The notes below the pieces were generated by a model. It was not told the DNA's origin. It saw only the letters and a program-made list of their open reading frames with translations, and made no database searches. A program made the translations under genes and the position numbers. Source: Guyparkeria sp. SCN-R1 (GTDB taxonomy: Bacteria; Pseudomonadota; Gammaproteobacteria; Halothiobacillales; Halothiobacillaceae). Taken from it: a stretch of 64,000 nt of DNA. This document shows, piece after piece, positions 26,987 through 35,316 of this stretch; positions within the stretch are counted from its first letter, which is position 1, and every line of letters begins with the position of its first letter. The stretch covers positions 1-64,000 of the forward strand of contig NZ_QZMT01000005.1 of assembly GCF_003932495.1 (NCBI RefSeq), given 5' to 3'.

Positions 26987-27748
26987 TCAGGGGGCCGATC
27001 CCCGCACCAGGTGCAGTCGCGAGACCAGTCGTCCCTCGAAGTGGGCGTCGAGCTCGAGCCCGTCGGGGCGCGTCTCGATCGCCAGACCCGGCTGCGGCTC
27101 GGGGTCGCTGTCGACCAGCCGGAGCAAGCCGGACGGCCAGTCGATCGCGAGGTGCACCTGCATCGGGTAGTAGCCGTCGAGGAATCGGCGCATGAACGGG
27201 CCGTTCTCGACCTGGAACCCGTCGGCGGTCGGGTGGGGTTCGATCGCGAGCACCTCGGCCCGCACGCAAAGCCGCGCGCCCCGCTCGATCTCTCGCATCT
27301 GCACGCTCGGCCCGTCGATTTTCGCCACGCCGATTCCCTGGCGCGAGGTGATGCGGATGTCCCGGGTGCGTTCCGGGTTGTAGACGATTTGTACCGCCGG
27401 CGCGGGATCGAGGTTTTCGTGGCATTGCCGCATCGCCGCCCAGCCGGTCTCGAGGCTGTTACGATCGAGGCGGATGCGTTTTTGCATGCGAGCCGCGTTC
27501 GGTTCGGGCGGGGTGGTGAGCAGTTCAAGCTCGCCCTCGTTGACCTGCCTTGCCTTCTCGATCAGGCGCTGCTCCTCGCGTGATCGTTCCTCCGCTTCCT
27601 CCCAGGCCGCATCCCAGTCGAAGGATTCGCTCGATGTCGCGTCTTCGGCCCAGGCCGGTGGCGAGGGGACTACCGCGGCGATCAGTGCCGCCAGCGTGAA
27701 CACGAGTGCCGAAAACGAGCCTCGGGCGACCGCGATCGAGACGGACAT
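26987..27748 (-). CDS. Unknown secreted protein downstream of ccoI
   Basis: About 253 residues; I do not recognise the family. A signal peptide (VFTLAALIAAVVPSPPAWA) is followed by a Glu/Arg-rich helical stretch (WEEAEERSREEQRLIEKARQ). After that is a mixed beta region with single conserved-looking Cys residues (MRQCHEN and ARLCVRAEV) that could form a disulfide. The ATG at 27748 gives the neat signal peptide; one at 27787 is possible. It starts 70 bp after ccoI and ends 60 bp before rlmKL, all on one strand. A role in periplasmic maturation of the nearby cytochromes is only a guess from position. Confidence 0.6.
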   Translation of the reverse strand: MSVSIAVARGSFSALVFTLAALIAAVVPSPPAWAEDATSSESFDWDAAWEEAEERSREEQRLIEKARQVNEGELELLTTPPEPNAARMQKRIRLDRNSLETGWAAMRQCHENLDPAPAVQIVYNPERTRDIRITSRQGIGVAKIDGPSVQMREIERGARLCVRAEVLAIEPHPTADGFQVENGPFMRRFLDGYYPMQVHLAIDWPSGLLRLVDSDPEPQPGLAIETRPDGLELDAHFEGRLVSRLHLVRGSAP

Positions 27749-27817
27749 GGAAGGGTCCACCGTGTGTTCTGGGAATGGGTAGACCATAGACCACGGCCAA
27801 CCGGCAATGCCAAGTCC

Positions 27818-30154
27818 TTACCCCGACCCGGCGGCGACGTTCGTCAAGCCGGTGGCCTGTGAGCCCTGCGGTGGATGACCGCCGTGGCGAGCGGCGTTAA
27901 GGATGACGGTCAGCGAACTGGCTGCCATCGCGGCGGCGGCCATCACGGGCGGGATGACGCCGAATGCCGCCAACGTGAGTCCGCCGGCGTTGTATCCCAG
28001 GGCGAAAACGAGATTCTGGCGCATGACTCGGCGGCCCTGGCGGGCGATCCGGATGGCACGCTCGACCCCGTCGACCCCCTCTCCGCCAAGCACGACCCCG
28101 GCGGCCATCGCCGCGGTGCTGTTGGCGTTCGACACGGCGATGCCGACGTCCGCAACCGCCAGGGCCAGGGCATCGTTGGCGCCGTCGCCGACGAAGGCGG
28201 CTTGCCCGCTCGCCGCGCGCAATCGCCGGGCCTTGTCCCCCGGCAGGCAGTCGGCGGTCACCCGCTCCGGTGGGATACCCACCGCGCGGGCCACCCGCAA
28301 GGCGGAGTCGTGACGGTCGCCGGTGAGCATCCCGCACTCGATCCCCAGCTCGCCCAGGGCGTGTACCGTCGCCGCGGCCGCGGGGCGCAGCGGGTCGTCA
28401 AGCACGATGGTGGCGACGTGGTTGCCGGCGATCGCCAGTTTCACCTGCATGTCGTCGCCGGCGCGAGGACTGTGAACCGGGATGCCGTGCGCTTCGAGAA
28501 AACTCGCCGAGCCGACCAGCAGTTCGCCATGGCGGGGGTGTCGCGCGCTCACCCCGGCATCCTCGCGGCGCGCCTCGAGCGGCATGACCGGGGCACCCGC
28601 CGCCTGGCGCAGGGCCCGGGCGATGACGTGTTCCACGTCGCCCTCGGCGGCCGCGGCCAGGCCGAGCAGGGTGGCTCGGTCGGCGGGAAGTGCGCTGGGC
28701 AATGGCTGGTGGACCATGACCTCGGCCACCGCGGGGTGGCCGGCGGTCAGGGTGCCGGTCTTGTCGAGAAAGACGCGTTCGATGCGAGCCAGTCGCTCCA
28801 GCGCGGCGGCGTCGCGAAACAGCACGCCCGCGTCGGCGGCGCGTCCGGCCTGGGTGACGTAGGCGATGGGCACGGCGATGCTGATCGCGCAGGGGCAGGC
28901 GACCACCAGCACCGAGGTCGCGCGCAACAAGGTTTCCTCAAGGGGCAGCCCGAGCAGCAGGCCGGCCATGCCGGTCAAGGTGGCCAGTCCGATGGCCCCC
29001 GGGGCGAGCCAGCGGGCGACGCGGTCGGCCAGTCGTTGCGTGCCGGGGCGGGCCCGCACCGTTTCGATCACCCGTTCGCCGATGCGGTCGATCTCGCGTT
29101 CGCCCACCCGGGCCGTGACTTCGACCACCAGGCCCCGCTCAAGATTGACGCAGCCGGCCGACACGGCATCGCCGGCTCGGACCTCGGCGGGGCGCGATTC
29201 GCCGGTCAACACGGCGCGATCGACGCGGCCTTCCCCCCGACGGAGGATGCCGTCAAGCGGGATGCGCTCGCCGGCCGGCACCCGGATCCGTTCGCCGACC
29301 GCCACCGATTCGGCGGCGACGGTCTCCGCGCTGCCGTCGCGATGCAGGCGGATAGCGACTTCCGGCAGCCGCGCGTGCAGGGCATCGATGGTGACGGCCG
29401 CCCGCCGCAGGGCCCGGGCTTCGAGCAGGCGTCCCACCGTCAGAAGGACCACCAGCATCACCGCCGTGTCGGCGTAGACGTGCTCCACGCCGCGCGACAG
29501 TTGCCAGGCCGAGAGCCCCAGCGCGGCCAGCACGCCGAGACTCACCAGGGTATCCATGCCGGGCACGCCGGTGCGAAGCGTGCGCCACCCGGCGAGCAGG
29601 ATGGGGCGGCCGGCCAGGGCGAGTGCGGGTAGCGCGAAGGAGACGCTTGCCAGCGCGAGCCACCAGCCCACCGATCCGCCCGACTGCTCCGCTACGCCCA
29701 GGTAGAGCAACAGCGAGAACAGCATGGTCCAGACCCCGAAGAACGCGGCGAGGGTCAGACGAACCCCCAATGCGCGGATCTCCCCGTCCAGCCGCTCGGC
29801 CGTTGTCCGGTGCCGGTCGGGTGGGGCGAGGCGATACCCCAGCCGGCGAACCGCCGCGGCGAGGGTGGCAAGCGACGTTCGGCCGGGGTCCCAACGCAGC
29901 AGGGCGGCCGAGCCGATGAAGCTTACCTGGGCGTCGAGGACCCCGGGGCTGTCGCGCAGCACTCGCTCGGTGGCCGCGGCGCAACTCGGGCACCACAGGC
30001 CCTCGATAGTGACCAGGGCGCGGCCCCGGCCCTCGAGCGAGTCGAGGCCGGCGAGGCGGTCGTCGGGGGTCGCCGATGCGTCCGCCGGCGCACCCGCCCG
30101 GCACGCGCCATCCGAGGGCTCGGTGGCGCTCGCGCCGTCACGGCGAGCCGTCAT
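27818..30154 (-). CDS. ccoI: Copper-translocating P-type ATPase for cbb3 oxidase assembly (CcoI/FixI-like)
   Basis: 778-residue P1B-type ATPase. An N-terminal heavy-metal domain has the CxxC motif in IEGLWCPSCAAATERVL, close to the GMWCxSCA form of CcoI. Then come eight predicted helices with the CPC motif (VACPCAISIAVPI), the phosphorylation site DKTGTLTAGHP, the HP-type nucleotide region and the hinge GDGANDALALA. CcoI pumps copper to the periplasm for CuB assembly of cbb3 oxidases. Membership in the ccoN-ccoO operon, overlapping the tsdA-like gene by 17 bp, supports that role over general copper export. The first 45 residues are a disordered Ala-rich extension. Confidence 0.9.
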   Translation of the reverse strand: MTARRDGASATEPSDGACRAGAPADASATPDDRLAGLDSLEGRGRALVTIEGLWCPSCAAATERVLRDSPGVLDAQVSFIGSAALLRWDPGRTSLATLAAAVRRLGYRLAPPDRHRTTAERLDGEIRALGVRLTLAAFFGVWTMLFSLLLYLGVAEQSGGSVGWWLALASVSFALPALALAGRPILLAGWRTLRTGVPGMDTLVSLGVLAALGLSAWQLSRGVEHVYADTAVMLVVLLTVGRLLEARALRRAAVTIDALHARLPEVAIRLHRDGSAETVAAESVAVGERIRVPAGERIPLDGILRRGEGRVDRAVLTGESRPAEVRAGDAVSAGCVNLERGLVVEVTARVGEREIDRIGERVIETVRARPGTQRLADRVARWLAPGAIGLATLTGMAGLLLGLPLEETLLRATSVLVVACPCAISIAVPIAYVTQAGRAADAGVLFRDAAALERLARIERVFLDKTGTLTAGHPAVAEVMVHQPLPSALPADRATLLGLAAAAEGDVEHVIARALRQAAGAPVMPLEARREDAGVSARHPRHGELLVGSASFLEAHGIPVHSPRAGDDMQVKLAIAGNHVATIVLDDPLRPAAAATVHALGELGIECGMLTGDRHDSALRVARAVGIPPERVTADCLPGDKARRLRAASGQAAFVGDGANDALALAVADVGIAVSNANSTAAMAAGVVLGGEGVDGVERAIRIARQGRRVMRQNLVFALGYNAGGLTLAAFGVIPPVMAAAAMAASSLTVILNAARHGGHPPQGSQATGLTNVAAGSG

Positions 30155-31298
30155 CGAGCCTCAATGCATGCTGATCGCGAAAGGTTTGCCATTCGGCATG
30201 ATCGAGGGGTTCGCCCAGGAGTCGGCCGCGCAGCCGCTGGCCGTAGTAGCCCTTCTTGTCGTCGTGATACCGAGACTGCGCCTCGGCGACGGAAAGGTCT
30301 TTCTCGATCTGGCGCGGGTCGGGGGGACGCGGGAAGCTGTTGATGAAGGCGGCCACGTCCCAGGCCTCCTGGTCGCTGAGGTAATCGCGCTTGCCCAGCG
30401 GCATGTTTGCCTTGATGAATGCCGCGGCGGTGGGCACGCGGTGCATGCCGGCGCCCCAGTTGTACGAATCGGGACCCCATAGCGGCGGGAAGATCCGCCG
30501 CCCGTTGATGTCCTTGTGTCCCTGCCCGTCGAGGCCGTGGCATACCGCGCAATTGGCGCGGTAGACCTGTTCGCCGCGTTGGTAGTTGAAGCCCCGCTCG
30601 GTGCGTTCGAGGGTGGGATAGCCCCGGCCGGGGAGGTCCTGGCCGGTGGGCGCCCCGTCGGCAAGCCAGAACATGTAGCTCTGCAGGTCCTTGTAGATGG
30701 AGTGGTTATCGGGCGGTGGGCCGCCGCTCGGCGACTCGCGCGCGTTCATCGAGTAGGTGAAACACCCCTTGAGACGATCCTCCATGGTGTTGACCATGTC
30801 GTTCTTGCCGCGGTATTTCGGGTAGACGCCCCAGGCGCCCCACAGTGGCGCGCTGCCCTGGCGCCGACCGGCGTCGAGGTGACAGTTCGCGCATGCCAGG
30901 TCGTTGCCGGTGAATCTCGCCGCCCGCGTGCCGGTGTTGACGAACACGCTGCGTCCGCGACGGATGGCATCGCCCATCTTGCCGTCGGGTATCTCCTTGT
31001 CGCTCGGCGGGACGAAGTGGTTGTCCTCGCCGACCGGTACCGTCGGGAAGTCGGCGTCTGCATCGTCAGCGAGGGCCTGGCGCGATTCGTCCAGCGCGGC
31101 CCGCGCCTGCCGGGCCTCGCGATCGGCGCGGGTGGTGGCTGCCTGCTCGGGGGTCTCGCCGATGGCGCCGAAGGGCCAGATCTCGTGTTCGGCGGCGAAG
31201 AATCCCGCCCCGAGCAGCACCACGGCGCCGGCCACCGCCAGGGCGGACCGTGCCAGCGCCGAGCGTTCGCGGGTCGTCCGATCGCCTTGTTGGCTCAT
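30138..31298 (-). CDS. tsdA: Membrane-anchored TsdA-like dihaem thiosulfate dehydrogenase
   Basis: 386-residue dihaem c-type cytochrome of the TsdA family, coupling two thiosulfates to tetrathionate (or the reverse). An N-terminal uncleaved-looking helix (residues about 17-36) is followed by a charged linker. Haem sites are CANCH (136-140) and CAVCH (250-254). Cys179 in DRLKGCFTYSMN matches the cysteine that ligates haem 1 in TsdA. Other family blocks are APLWGAWGVYPKYRGKNDMVNTMEDR, FPPLWGPDSYNWGAGMH and KANMPLG (Met299 as likely haem-2 ligand). The C-terminus carries an extra 55-residue charged tail. The start codon overlaps the tsdB stop by 4 bp. Confidence 0.88.
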   Translation of the reverse strand: MSQQGDRTTRERSALARSALAVAGAVVLLGAGFFAAEHEIWPFGAIGETPEQAATTRADREARQARAALDESRQALADDADADFPTVPVGEDNHFVPPSDKEIPDGKMGDAIRRGRSVFVNTGTRAARFTGNDLACANCHLDAGRRQGSAPLWGAWGVYPKYRGKNDMVNTMEDRLKGCFTYSMNARESPSGGPPPDNHSIYKDLQSYMFWLADGAPTGQDLPGRGYPTLERTERGFNYQRGEQVYRANCAVCHGLDGQGHKDINGRRIFPPLWGPDSYNWGAGMHRVPTAAAFIKANMPLGKRDYLSDQEAWDVAAFINSFPRPPDPRQIEKDLSVAEAQSRYHDDKKGYYGQRLRGRLLGEPLDHAEWQTFRDQHALRLDDGSP

Positions 31299-32152
31299 CC
31301 GTCGCCCTCCGTCTGTGCGGGATTCGTGGTGGCATCGGTCTGTTCCGACCTCGAGCCCGCCGGCGAGGTGAGTTCCTGGCGGGGTGGCCGGCTGGCCAGA
31401 TAATCCGCCAGGGCGCGACGGTCGGCGTCGGAAAGCACGCGCGCCACGTCGTGCATGAAGTTCTCCGGGTCGTTGTCGCGCCGGCCGGTGGCGAAGGCGG
31501 TGAGCTGCTGGTAGAGGTAGACCGGCTGCTGACCGGCGATCGGCGGGAAGCTCGGCCCCACTCCCCAGCCGGACGAGCCGTGGCAGCTGTAGCAGGCGGG
31601 CGCGCTCACGCGCCAGTCGCCGCGGAGCGCGAGTTCACGCCCGCGGTCCATGTCCCCGCCCAGCGAGGCCCCCGCCGGCGCCTCGAGCGACATCTCGGCG
31701 TAGAAACGCCCCAGGGCCGCCATCTCCTTTTCGCTCAAGCCGCGGGCGACGTAGTTCATGCTGGCGTTCTTCCGCCGTCCGGTGGCAAAGTCCGCCAGCT
31801 GCTTGGCGATATAGCCGGCGGGCAGGCCGGCGAGGGCCGGGATTTGCTCGGTTCCCTCGCCCTTCGCGCCATGGCAGGAGGCACAGGACCAGGTGCCGTT
31901 CCCGCCGGCGATCAGGTCACCGGCGATTCCCGGGGATACCTCCGCGCTGCGGGCCTCCCAGCGCATGGCGGCCAGCGGGTCGATCGGGTCGGAGGCGCTC
32001 GCGGCCGCGTCGTCGTTCCCGGAGGGGGAACAGCCGGTGCCCAGCAGGGCGAAGCCGGCGGCCATCGCCACCGTCGCCGCAACGCCGGCAAGCCGGCCGG
32101 CTGTCGGTGGACCGGTTCGGGTTGAGGGGCTGTGTCGAAGTCTCAGAGGCAT
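31295..32152 (-). CDS. tsdB: Dihaem cytochrome c4-type protein, probable TsdB electron acceptor
   Basis: 285-residue exported dihaem cytochrome. A leader (VAATVAMAAGFALLGTGC) may be a lipoprotein or ordinary signal, since the lipobox is poor. Two homologous class-I halves follow: CASCH (90-94) with Met132 (NASMNYVA), and CYSCH (187-191) with Met233 (ENFMHDVA). Each half has the GYIAKQLADFATGRR / YLYQQLTAFATGRR segment of c4-type cytochromes. TsdB proteins of thiosulfate dehydrogenase systems are of this type and are encoded just before tsdA, exactly as here. It would carry electrons from TsdA to the oxidase. Confidence 0.82.
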   Translation of the reverse strand: MPLRLRHSPSTRTGPPTAGRLAGVAATVAMAAGFALLGTGCSPSGNDDAAASASDPIDPLAAMRWEARSAEVSPGIAGDLIAGGNGTWSCASCHGAKGEGTEQIPALAGLPAGYIAKQLADFATGRRKNASMNYVARGLSEKEMAALGRFYAEMSLEAPAGASLGGDMDRGRELALRGDWRVSAPACYSCHGSSGWGVGPSFPPIAGQQPVYLYQQLTAFATGRRDNDPENFMHDVARVLSDADRRALADYLASRPPRQELTSPAGSRSEQTDATTNPAQTEGDG

Positions 32153-32160
32153 GGCGGCGG

Positions 32161-32838
32161 TCAGTGTCCGATGGGTTTGGAATCGCCGCTACCGGCCTTT
32201 TGCCTCGCTTGCCCGACGGGCTGGCCGAGGGTATCGGCGATATCGGCCTCGCCTTTGAGTGGCGCGGAGCGATCGGCGAGGCGCTGGCGAAGCTCGGCAA
32301 CTCGCTCGGGGCTTACGGCGCCGGCGTCGTTGCCCCAGGCCTGGCGGATGAAGCTGACGATTCGGGCGATCTGCTCGTCGTTCAATGCGTTTCGGAAGGT
32401 CGGCATGCGCCCGTCGAAGCTTCGCCCGTCGACGGTGACCGGTCCGCTCAACCCCATCAGCACGATCCCCACCGGCGCGTCGGCGTTGCCGGTGACGAAG
32501 GGCGAGCCGGCCAGCGGCGGCACCGCGCCGCGAATGCCGATACCGTCCTCCTGGTGACAGGTGGCGCAGTTGTCCTCGAACAGTTCCCGTCCCGGGGCGA
32601 GTACCGCTCGTCCACTTCCCTCCGACCCGGCGGTCGCGCCAGGGTTCGCCCCGGCCCGGGTGCCGGCGCTCGCCGTGGCTGGCTCGTCGCTGACGGTGAA
32701 CAGGGTGAACGCCCCCCAGGCGGCCAGGGCGATCACCACCGAATAGACGATCACCGGGATGCCGCGTTGCCGTTCGTAGGGAATGAACGAGTCGTCCCGG
32801 ACGCCGCCGATCGAGGTAATGAACCGGCGTTTCTTCAT
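32161..32838 (-). CDS. Membrane-anchored monohaem cytochrome c in the cbb3 operon (possible CcoP replacement)
   Basis: 225 residues. A cytoplasmic N-terminus (MKKRRFITSIGGVRDDSFIPYERQRG) is followed by one helix at about 28-46. An Ala/Gly linker leads to a class-I cytochrome domain with CATCH (91-95) and Met145 (DGRMPTF), then a charged tail. Classical CcoP has two haem-c sites, so this is about half a CcoP in haem content. Its place directly after ccoO, overlapping it by 4 bp, suggests it is the third subunit of this oxidase or the docking cytochrome between TsdB and CcoO. Confidence 0.8.
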   Translation of the reverse strand: MKKRRFITSIGGVRDDSFIPYERQRGIPVIVYSVVIALAAWGAFTLFTVSDEPATASAGTRAGANPGATAGSEGSGRAVLAPGRELFEDNCATCHQEDGIGIRGAVPPLAGSPFVTGNADAPVGIVLMGLSGPVTVDGRSFDGRMPTFRNALNDEQIARIVSFIRQAWGNDAGAVSPERVAELRQRLADRSAPLKGEADIADTLGQPVGQARQKAGSGDSKPIGH

Positions 32839-33455
32839 CCCCGCTCACCCCCGTGGCGGTACCCGTTGTCGCGCAGGTTCCGGTGCACCGGCGGGTAGCT
32901 GTGGTCGAGGCTGAGCAGGTAGGCGACCAGGTCGAGGGCGGACTGGCGCGCGACCACCACCTTGCCTTCGGGCCGGAATGCCTTCGGCACGTCGACGACG
33001 ACATCGTCGGGCCCGGCCGAATCCTTGGTCTCGAACAGGAACGGGAAGGCGGGCATGATGCTGTCGGGGTGCACGGCTCGCGGGGCGTAGAGGTGCGTCA
33101 GTTGCCAGGCGCGCGAGGGCTGGCGTGCGCCGATGTTGAACAGGTCGGGGCCGGTACGCATGGTGCCGAGCTGGTGGGGCCGGTCGTAGACGTAGTCCGC
33201 CGCGGTCGAGGGCCGTCCCCAGCCGCGCGCCTGGTCGGGAGCCTGCGAGGGGTCGCGCGGCTGCTGCGAATGGCAGTAGACGCAACCGAGTCCCACGTAG
33301 TGGGCGCGCCCGCGCAATTCGGCCTTGGAATACGGTTCTAGTTGCTTCGGCGCCTCGATCGGGGCGATCTGCAGGGCGGGCCCGATCAGCAGAAAGATCA
33401 TGGCCAGGGCGAGGATCGCCAGCGCGACGAGGCCTAACGGCAGGAGTCGATTCAT
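32835..33455 (-). CDS. ccoO: cbb3-type cytochrome c oxidase subunit II (CcoO)
   Basis: 206-residue membrane-anchored monohaem subunit taking electrons to CcoN. An N-terminal helix (residues about 4-25) precedes EPYSKAELRGRAHYVGLGCVYCHSQQPRDP, with CVYCH at 58-62. Then come GPDLFNIGARQPSRAWQLTHLYAPRAVHPDSIMPAF, with Met134 as probable axial ligand. These blocks are characteristic of CcoO/FixO. It overlaps ccoN and the following cytochrome gene by 4 bp each. Confidence 0.95.
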   Translation of the reverse strand: MNRLLPLGLVALAILALAMIFLLIGPALQIAPIEAPKQLEPYSKAELRGRAHYVGLGCVYCHSQQPRDPSQAPDQARGWGRPSTAADYVYDRPHQLGTMRTGPDLFNIGARQPSRAWQLTHLYAPRAVHPDSIMPAFPFLFETKDSAGPDDVVVDVPKAFRPEGKVVVARQSALDLVAYLLSLDHSYPPVHRNLRDNGYRHGGERG

Positions 33456-35008
33456 GCGGCACCCCCTGTCTGCAACGACTCACCGGAATGGTCGGCGCTC
33501 ACCGGGCGTTTGCCCGGTGCCGTGAGGAAGGCCACCAGGTGCAGGGCGAACAGGACGTGGCCGGCGGTCATCATGCTGCCGCCGACCGAACGGGCGGTGA
33601 GGTAGGGGACGGTCAGTCGGACGCTCTCCATGAAATCGCGGGTGGGATCGAGCATCGCCATCCCCTGCAGCCACCCGCCGATCGTCAGCGAACCGACGTA
33701 GATGCCGACACCGATCGCCGCCAGCCAGAAGTGCCAGGCGATCAACGCGCGCCAAGGCCAGTGTCGCCCGGTCAGGTGCGGCAGGATGTAGTAGATCGAA
33801 CCGAACATCACCAGGGAGACGAAGGCGTACATGCCCATGTGGGCGTGACCGACCGTGTAGTGGGTGAAGTGAGTGACGGTGTTCACCGCGCGCAGGGCCT
33901 CGAGCGAGCCTTGCAGGGAAACCACGGTGTAGCAGATCGCACCCAGCGCCACGAACCGCAACGGGATGCTCTCGCGCCAGGCCCAGCCGTTGCTCAGGCT
34001 CAGGGTGTGCTGGTTGATCGCCACGGCGAGTACCGGCACGACCATCATCACCGACTGGACGACCGAGAGCGTCACCGCCCAGGTCGGGATCGGGCCGCCG
34101 ACGAGGTGGTGTAGGCCGACCTGGCTGTAAAACAGTGCCAGCGCCCAGAAGCCCAGCAGCGACAACCGGTAGGAGTAGATCGGCTTGCCGATGATGCGGG
34201 GGATGAAATAGTAGGCGGCGGCCAGCCCCAGCGGCGTCGCCCACAGGCCCAGCACGTTGTGCGCGTACCACCAGTTGACCGTCGCCGCCTGGGCGCCGCT
34301 ATACAGCGAGGGCACGTTGGCGGTGACGAACAACACCACGAACCACAGCAGCGCGGCACTGAGATACCAGCCAGAGACGTAGATGTGTTCGATCTGGCGA
34401 TGTCGCCCCGTCAGCAAAATGGGTATCCCGATCAGCACCACGGCCGCCGCCAGCGCGATGTCGATCTGCCACGGGAATTCCAGCCATTCCATTCCGTCGG
34501 TCCAGCCCGAGCCGAGGGCGACCACGCCGGCCAGTGTCGCGAGGTTCCAGAGGATGCCGCCCCACAGCGCCACGGTCGGGTGTCGCAACCGGGTGCGGAA
34601 CAGGGTGGGTGCCAGCCACAGGGCGGTGCCGAGACCGGCGAGCGAGGTCCAGCCGTAGACCACGCTGTTGAGGTGCATGGTGCGCACACGACCGAAGGTC
34701 AAGGGGGCACTGCCGTCGAGCAGCCCCGGGATGTGGAGCTTGAGCGAGGCGATCAGCCCGAAGGTCGATCCGATCACCAGCCAGGCGATCGCGGTGACGA
34801 AGAAGAACAGGATCAGGCGTCGCTCGGCCGGACCGAAGGATTGCTCCCCGGTGGTCTGACGCTCGTTATCCGCCTCGGGCAGTATCGAGCTGGCCTGGTC
34901 GTCGGAAATCGCGAACTGGTTCGAGTAGATCGCCCAGATGAGGGCGAGGATCGCGATCAGCGAGAGGACGAAACTGAAAGCCAGCAGCGAGCCGATCGAG
35001 TAAAGCAA
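33452..35008 (-). CDS. ccoN: Divergent cbb3-type oxidase catalytic subunit CcoN with an N-terminal CcoS-like segment
   Basis: 518-residue haem-copper oxidase subunit, a proton-pumping O2 reductase core. All catalytic residues are visible: His112 and His390 for haem b, His388 for haem b3, His250, His300 and His301 for CuB, and the cross-linking Tyr294 (spacing from His250 as in Pseudomonas CcoN). Residues 1-50 (helix, then IWAIYSNQFAISDDQASSILPEAD) resemble the free-standing assembly protein CcoS (WAxxSGQFDDL...ILxDxD). The start is TTG with AGGAG 9 nt upstream. It heads the six-gene operon. No FNR/ANR box is visible upstream. Confidence 0.93.
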   Translation of the reverse strand: MLYSIGSLLAFSFVLSLIAILALIWAIYSNQFAISDDQASSILPEADNERQTTGEQSFGPAERRLILFFFVTAIAWLVIGSTFGLIASLKLHIPGLLDGSAPLTFGRVRTMHLNSVVYGWTSLAGLGTALWLAPTLFRTRLRHPTVALWGGILWNLATLAGVVALGSGWTDGMEWLEFPWQIDIALAAAVVLIGIPILLTGRHRQIEHIYVSGWYLSAALLWFVVLFVTANVPSLYSGAQAATVNWWYAHNVLGLWATPLGLAAAYYFIPRIIGKPIYSYRLSLLGFWALALFYSQVGLHHLVGGPIPTWAVTLSVVQSVMMVVPVLAVAINQHTLSLSNGWAWRESIPLRFVALGAICYTVVSLQGSLEALRAVNTVTHFTHYTVGHAHMGMYAFVSLVMFGSIYYILPHLTGRHWPWRALIAWHFWLAAIGVGIYVGSLTIGGWLQGMAMLDPTRDFMESVRLTVPYLTARSVGGSMMTAGHVLFALHLVAFLTAPGKRPVSADHSGESLQTGGAA

Positions 35009-35316
35009 ACGAATGGACTCCTGCGCGAACCGCGGTCGCGCCTGGGCGGTGGTTGAACGGGTAGCTGGTGAATCGTGAAGCTAGCCTACTGATTCGGCTT
35101 TAACAAGTGAGAATCGAACATGGCGTTCTGGTTCCCACGGTTCTTGCGGCACAAGTCGGCCCGGCATGACGACAGGCGTGCGGGGCGGCATGCGGCATTG
35201 ACGGGGCATCGATGGCAGAATGGCCCGATCGTGGATCGCGGCGTGCCGGCCCACCCGCCGAGGGTGTCGGGCCTGGTATCGCCCCGATCCCTTGGCGCGG
35301 GAGGACGAACACCATC
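35009..35316. other. Divergent intergenic region between ccoN and the YejF-type gene
   Basis: This 308-bp gap must hold the promoters of the respiratory operon (minus) and the YejF-type gene (plus). For ccoN a possible pair is TTGTTA (35101-35106) with TAGCTT (35078-35083), 17 bp apart, but the -10 is weak. I see no TTGAT-N4-ATCAA site for FNR/ANR and no obvious operator. The open frame running through it on the plus strand looks non-coding before the GTG at 35317. Confidence 0.4.

Follow-up and report, generated by a model that had tools for sequence, protein, structure and literature searches.

We analyzed a 64,000-nucleotide stretch of DNA (the window) from Guyparkeria sp. SCN-R1, contig NZ_QZMT01000005.1. 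Within it, six minus-strand open reading frames (ORFs; 27818-35008) probably form one operon that encodes a dedicated chain from thiosulfate to O2 at the periplasmic face of the inner membrane. In the order of transcription, they encode a CcoN-like oxidase subunit, a CcoO-like subunit, a small cytochrome (C1), the cytochrome TsdB, the thiosulfate dehydrogenase TsdA, and a P-type ATPase (P-ATPase). Neighboring genes overlap by 4, 4, 4, and 17 base pairs (bp), and the sole gap, between C1 and TsdB, is 8 bp. A preliminary description of this DNA had listed six genes on one strand with these overlaps and this gap; we found all of the ORFs where it placed them, and the Pfam and PDB comparisons for each gene agree with the names that it gave. 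The features are:

35018..35022, minus strand: Shine-Dalgarno-like AGGAG ahead of the start codon of ccoN, which is a TTG at 35008 (from the sequence)
33452..35008, minus strand: divergent C-family haem-copper oxidase subunit I, CcoN-like, 518 amino acids (COX1 match, CcoN structures, metal ligands)
34880..34996, minus strand: CcoS/FixS-like N-terminal extension of CcoN, residues 5-43 (Pfam FixS)
32835..33455, minus strand: CcoO-like monohaem subunit II (FixO match, CVYCH haem motif)
32161..32838, minus strand: C1, a truncated CcoP-like protein with one transmembrane (TM) anchor and one haem c domain (hhalign and hmmsearch to CcoP)
31295..32152, minus strand: TsdB, c4-like dihaem cytochrome and TsdA acceptor, with a possible lipoprotein signal (TsdB half of 5lo9; 6q2u)
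30138..31298, minus strand: TsdA, dihaem thiosulfate dehydrogenase with a putative N-terminal membrane anchor (5lo9, Allochromatium TsdA, residues)
27818..30154, minus strand: Cu(I)-type P1B ATPase, CcoI-like (TIGR01525, TIGR01511, motifs)

We scanned bacteria and archaea at one genome per species and found 30 relatives of this CcoN. The preliminary description had suggested a neighborhood search for ccoN-ccoO beside tsdA, and such loci do recur: the order CcoN-CcoO-C1-TsdB-TsdA-ATPase is present at 12 loci (counting the window) in seven genera of Gammaproteobacteria and Alphaproteobacteria. Because the order recurs so widely, the genes appear to be associated beyond chance. The other gammaproteobacterial carriers are a metagenome-assembled genome (MAG) from the same genus (L005), a second congener (L053), Marinobacter aromaticivorans, Modicisalibacter ilicicola, and two Halomonas, in one of which the ccoN frame is split. 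The remaining carriers are a Sphingomonadales MAG and Novosphingobium rosa, whose loci are near-identical, and three plasmids, from Paracoccus versutus, P. aminovorans, and Indioceanicola profundi. (Two of these plasmids are typed as conjugative.) With named isolates and complete plasmid records among the 12 loci, we can rule out a one-off arrangement or an assembly artefact. The CcoN lineage is rare: it was found in at least 5 of 369 gammaproteobacterial genomes and at least 5 of 398 Pseudomonadota genomes sampled, with the window's own genome counted (these are lower bounds, as only part of the candidates in each genome were scored).

The oxidase and TsdA of these loci share one history. In a tree of CcoN proteins, which left out the split-frame Halomonas ccoN, the 11 TsdBA-linked CcoNs form a single clade (support 100/100). 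Similarly, in a tree of 79 TsdA sequences, the 12 TsdAs from these loci and those from two degenerate loci form one clade (support 100/99). The main splits agree as well: in both trees, the window's genus groups with Marinobacter and the Halomonadaceae, apart from the alphaproteobacteria (support 100/98 for TsdA and 100/99 for CcoN). The TsdAs of sister genera in the window's family group elsewhere, in another clade. Of 11 genomes from the window's genus, exactly 3 have TsdA, and these are the three that have this CcoN. The chance of this would be 1 in 165 if the genomes were independent, but they are not, and 4 of the 11 are less than 90% complete. Together, the co-occurrence and the clades fit with acquisition or loss of the genes as one unit.

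Gene fusions also connect the two halves of the operon. At four alphaproteobacterial loci (L008, L009, L041, and L044), C1 and TsdB form one ORF, with the membrane anchor of C1 and three haem motifs. In Marichromatium, TsdB is fused to TsdA. The two types of fusion therefore provide linked pairs that connect TsdA with the cytochrome of the oxidase itself.

We then examined the functional residues of TsdA and TsdB. (There is one CxxCH haem motif each in CcoO and C1, and two each in TsdB and TsdA.) TsdA has a SoxA-TsdA domain and is similar to Marichromatium purpuratum TsdBA (PDB:5lo9; E = 4e-87) and to Allochromatium TsdA (E = 8e-58). Its two haem motifs are C136/C139/H140 and C250/C253/H254. 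As in 5lo9 and the tsdB-tsdA pairs of Thiomonas, Pseudomonas, and Halomonas, haem 1 has the Cys/His ligands (Cys179 is present), haem 2 has an Asn-Met pair (Met299 is conserved), and a c4-like dihaem TsdB is encoded directly upstream. The active-site residues Arg119, Ser127, Gly221, and the partly conserved Arg224 (A. vinosum numbering) are retained as R175, S183, G284, and R287. Lys165 occupies the position of A. vinosum Arg109, a replacement that has been reported for some TsdAs. For TsdB, the matches are to the corresponding half of 5lo9 (E = 1e-27) and then to cytochrome c4 (PDB:6q2u; E = 3e-22), and by inspection, LLGTGC near its N-terminus could be a lipoprotein signal. Those other tsdBA genes are standalone or fused, whereas here they lie between an oxidase and its presumed copper pump, and TsdA has a putative membrane anchor.

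The oxidase resembles the canonical cbb3 oxidases (CcoNOQP with CcoGHIS) in its core. CcoN matches Pfam's COX1 (E = 8e-78), and its closest matches in PDB are the CcoN structures 3mk7 and 9g6b. An AlphaFold model (pLDDT 84) has the CcoN fold, with 3mk7 as the top Foldseek match (TM-score 0.89, by target). The ligands of haem b, haem b3, and CuB (H112, H250, H300, H301, H388, and H390) and the cross-link tyrosine in helix VII (Y294) are invariant in all 43 CcoNs from these loci and related ones. Also as in canonical clusters, there is a monohaem CcoO (FixO, E = 4e-31) and a copper ATPase. The P-ATPase is above the cut-offs for NCBIfam's copper ATPases TIGR01525 and TIGR01511 and has a CPSC motif as well as the motifs of the Cu(I) ATPases CcoI and CopA2 (CPC, DKTG, YN, and MxxSS, here MAASS). 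Judging solely by gene position, it is the probable copper supply for the oxidase.

The oxidase differs from canonical cbb3 in several ways. CcoN has about 31% identity to the cbb3 CcoNs that the same genome encodes, and it scores 260 bits against NCBIfam's ccoN equivalog (TIGR00780), for which the cut-off is 583. In P. stutzeri numbering, His243 is replaced by glycine in all 43 relatives and Glu323 by glutamine in 40 of them. The change at Glu323 is also seen in another deep group of CcoNs, but the change at His243 is not. Residues 5-43 of CcoN align to nearly the full length of Pfam's FixS (CcoS; E = 1e-4, one bit below the gathering score). FixS was detected in 13 of the 26 CcoN proteins that we scanned, including the window's, and we read this segment as a putative CcoS fused to CcoN. 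Where canonical CcoP is dihaem, C1 has a single haem, along with one TM anchor. Its TM helix and haem domain align to the TM helix and the first haem domain of canonical CcoP (hhalign, 98.8%), and with hmmsearch C1 matches the CcoP chains 9g83_v and 3mk7_C, starting at the P-x-E...P motif. Because of this alignment, CcoP seems to have been reduced to C1 rather than simply lost. The preliminary description had reported ccoP, ccoQ, ccoG, and ccoH as absent; this is correct for ccoQ, ccoG, and ccoH, which are not in the six-gene cluster, but ccoP survives in shortened form. Another contig of the same genome (C19) encodes canonical ccoN and ccoO, a short ccoQ-like ORF, ccoP, and a ccoG-like ORF, and these may provide accessory functions in trans. 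(A further canonical ccoN lies near the end of contig C17 [G000; L063 765-2252], with no ccoO detected; it is either an orphan or cut off by the contig end.)

Overall, the term cbb3 oxidase in the preliminary description is right about the fold and the ligands, but this is a distinct lineage and not a standard cbb3. A profile of this CcoN family, when compared to 339 Pseudomonadota genomes, gave 779-844 bits for members; the next protein scored 387 bits and the others at most 344. A quick tree search recovered three deep groups: the canonical CcoNs, a second group, and the family of the window's CcoN. Proximal and distal lineages of cbb3 were distinguished by Ducluzeau 2008, as cited in PMC8788666. 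We infer, from our tree and not from Ducluzeau's own sequences, that the second group is the distal lineage; the window's CcoN forms a third deep branch, apart from the canonical CcoNs and from this group. The second group retains His243 and stays apart from the window's CcoN, so if that group is indeed distal, we can reject the idea that the window encodes a distal cbb3. (Sideroxydans upregulated its distal cbb3 when on thiosulfate; PMC8788666.) The low identity to the genome's cbb3 CcoNs and the separate branch also rule out a standard cbb3 that lost ccoP.

How would the chain operate? Membrane-anchored TsdA would convert two thiosulfates to tetrathionate and pass two electrons to TsdB. From TsdB, electrons would flow to C1, which would take the place of CcoP with a single haem, on to CcoO, and finally to the haem b and haem b3-CuB site of CcoN, where O2 would be reduced. 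The P-ATPase would deliver the copper for CuB, and the CcoS-like extension would act in cis as CcoS does in trans. On this thiosulfate branch, the quinone pool and the bc1 complex would be bypassed. We infer co-transcription, a physical complex, the direction of electron flow, proton pumping, and the ATPase's role with copper. The thiosulfate/tetrathionate couple is too positive for good reduction of ubiquinone, so a cytochrome oxidase is a natural sink for its electrons. (The couple is listed at +198 mV in PMC9562282.) A precedent is the bc1-cbb3 supercomplex of P. aeruginosa (PDB:8smr and 8snh), as a c4-type dihaem chain (6q2u) is listed with the cbb3 subunits. In that supercomplex, electrons enter from bc1, whereas here the proposed source is TsdA.

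Several observations weigh against a dedicated chain. The same oxidase lineage occurs without TsdBA, so the oxidase does not require TsdBA. One locus (L136 6623-8875) has TsdA and a tri-haem fusion of the C1-TsdB type but lacks an oxidase in the vicinity, so a cytochrome fused in this way can work with acceptors other than this oxidase. At a decayed locus (L135 9710-12900), only the ends of ccoN remain and C1 has lost its haem domain, with its anchor joined to TsdB; CcoO, TsdBA, and the ATPase are retained. And according to the Guyparkeria pangenome paper, two named species showed no tetrathionate while growing on thiosulfate (PMC9032823). The first two observations, along with the other oxidases in this genome and a report that TsdB can take electrons from another organism's TsdA (PMC9237845), would suit a looser arrangement, in which TsdBA, although expressed together with the oxidase, delivers its electrons to the general pool of periplasmic cytochrome c. 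The oxidase would then receive electrons mainly from bc1 via soluble cytochromes, like a standard cbb3. We consider this unlikely, as the C1-TsdB fusion at four loci, the single clade for each partner, and the strict co-occurrence within the genus argue for specific coupling. Overall, the preliminary description's proposal of a dedicated path from TsdA through TsdB, C1, and CcoO to CcoN agrees with the recurrence in two classes, the shared history, the fusion, and the intact catalytic residues, but the oxidase lineage also pairs with other electron inputs.

Two other explanations would change the reaction itself. If the CcoN-like protein were a nitric oxide (NO) reductase or an NO-detoxifying enzyme, TsdBA would supply its electrons. 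NnrS adjoins some Burkholderiales relatives, NorB is a weak sequence match, and the haem-ligand helix has the sequence TVGHAHxG, which is a NorB-like pattern. But the cross-link tyrosine and all three histidines of CuB are invariant, and NO reductases are not known to have them. CcoN structures also fit far better than NorB (E = 8e-23 versus 1e-11), and we saw no NnrS beside the operons with TsdBA. Given the ligands and the fold, a simple NO reductase is very improbable. Alternatively, TsdA might run in reverse as a tetrathionate reductase, and the pairing would let the cell change its acceptor from tetrathionate to O2 or back. Enzymes of the TsdA type work in both directions (PMC6879331), and the Asn-Met ligation of haem 2 is as in C. 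jejuni TsdA (PMC9237845; PMC6879331). On the other hand, enzymes partnered with TsdB are described as oxidizing thiosulfate, with TsdB as the acceptor. TsdB is fused to the oxidase's cytochrome in some relatives, and therefore outward flow to O2 is the simplest reading. Also, the host has soxB, and its family is one of sulfur oxidizers. We give the reverse reaction very little credence and prefer oxidation of thiosulfate by O2.

The oxidase lineage has other partners. In two Paraburkholderia loci (L046 8797-15662 and L021 9001-15863), the genes that come after the oxidase and the ATPase encode a sulfite-oxidase-like molybdenum protein and a monohaem cytochrome. In MAGs from Bacteroidetes and Acidobacteria (L027 1704-7383 and L028 6435-15955), the oxidase is followed by genes for alternative complex III (a five-haem cytochrome and a Mo/FeS protein, with an NrfD-like protein shown in L028). 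In the Burkholderiales versions (L014-L029, L042, L045, and L057-L059), SCO and a small membrane protein replace the ATPase, and several have NnrS directly upstream. These gene neighborhoods suggest that the oxidase accepts different donor modules and that TsdBA is one plug-in among several. More tentatively, this third C-family lineage (CcoS-CcoN, CcoO, and monohaem C1) might be a so far unnamed plug-in oxidase that bypasses bc1 and docks directly with TsdBA, with the sulfite-oxidase-like enzyme and its cytochrome, or with alternative complex III. In the TsdBA form, the result would be a stable thiosulfate:O2 oxidoreductase supercomplex. This is possible, but we would not bet on it.

We found no description of an oxidase-TsdA operon in the open-licence literature, although one may exist elsewhere. 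As for the question of how electrons travel from tetrathionate-forming thiosulfate oxidation to O2, tsdBA was described in Halomonas, and transfer from TsdB to cbb3 has so far only been proposed (PMC9237845). Because the acceptor oxidase is in the same operon, and is fused to the same cytochrome in some relatives, the question can be tested directly here. The orphan tsdA that was noted without explanation in two Guyparkeria strains (PMC9032823) could have its function in such an operon. The operon also draws attention to a rare lineage of oxidases that apparently swap electron donors.

We made a few other observations. Marinobacter aromaticivorans has two operons for this oxidase within 16 kb (L006 792-16127), one with TsdBA and one without; the CcoN of the latter is outside the TsdBA-linked clade. 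In another gammaproteobacterium (L155 3938-10322), tsdA is 460 bp upstream of a canonical ccoNO-P on the same strand, which is an independent pairing of tsdA with cbb3. The GC content of the operon is 69.9%, versus 65.9% for the window. A promoter scan gave no hits, and a look for an FNR-type box upstream of the operon within the window was negative. Directly downstream of the operon (26987-27787, minus strand) is a gene for a 266-amino-acid protein that has no match in Pfam or NCBIfam; it lies beside the same operon in two congeners as well.

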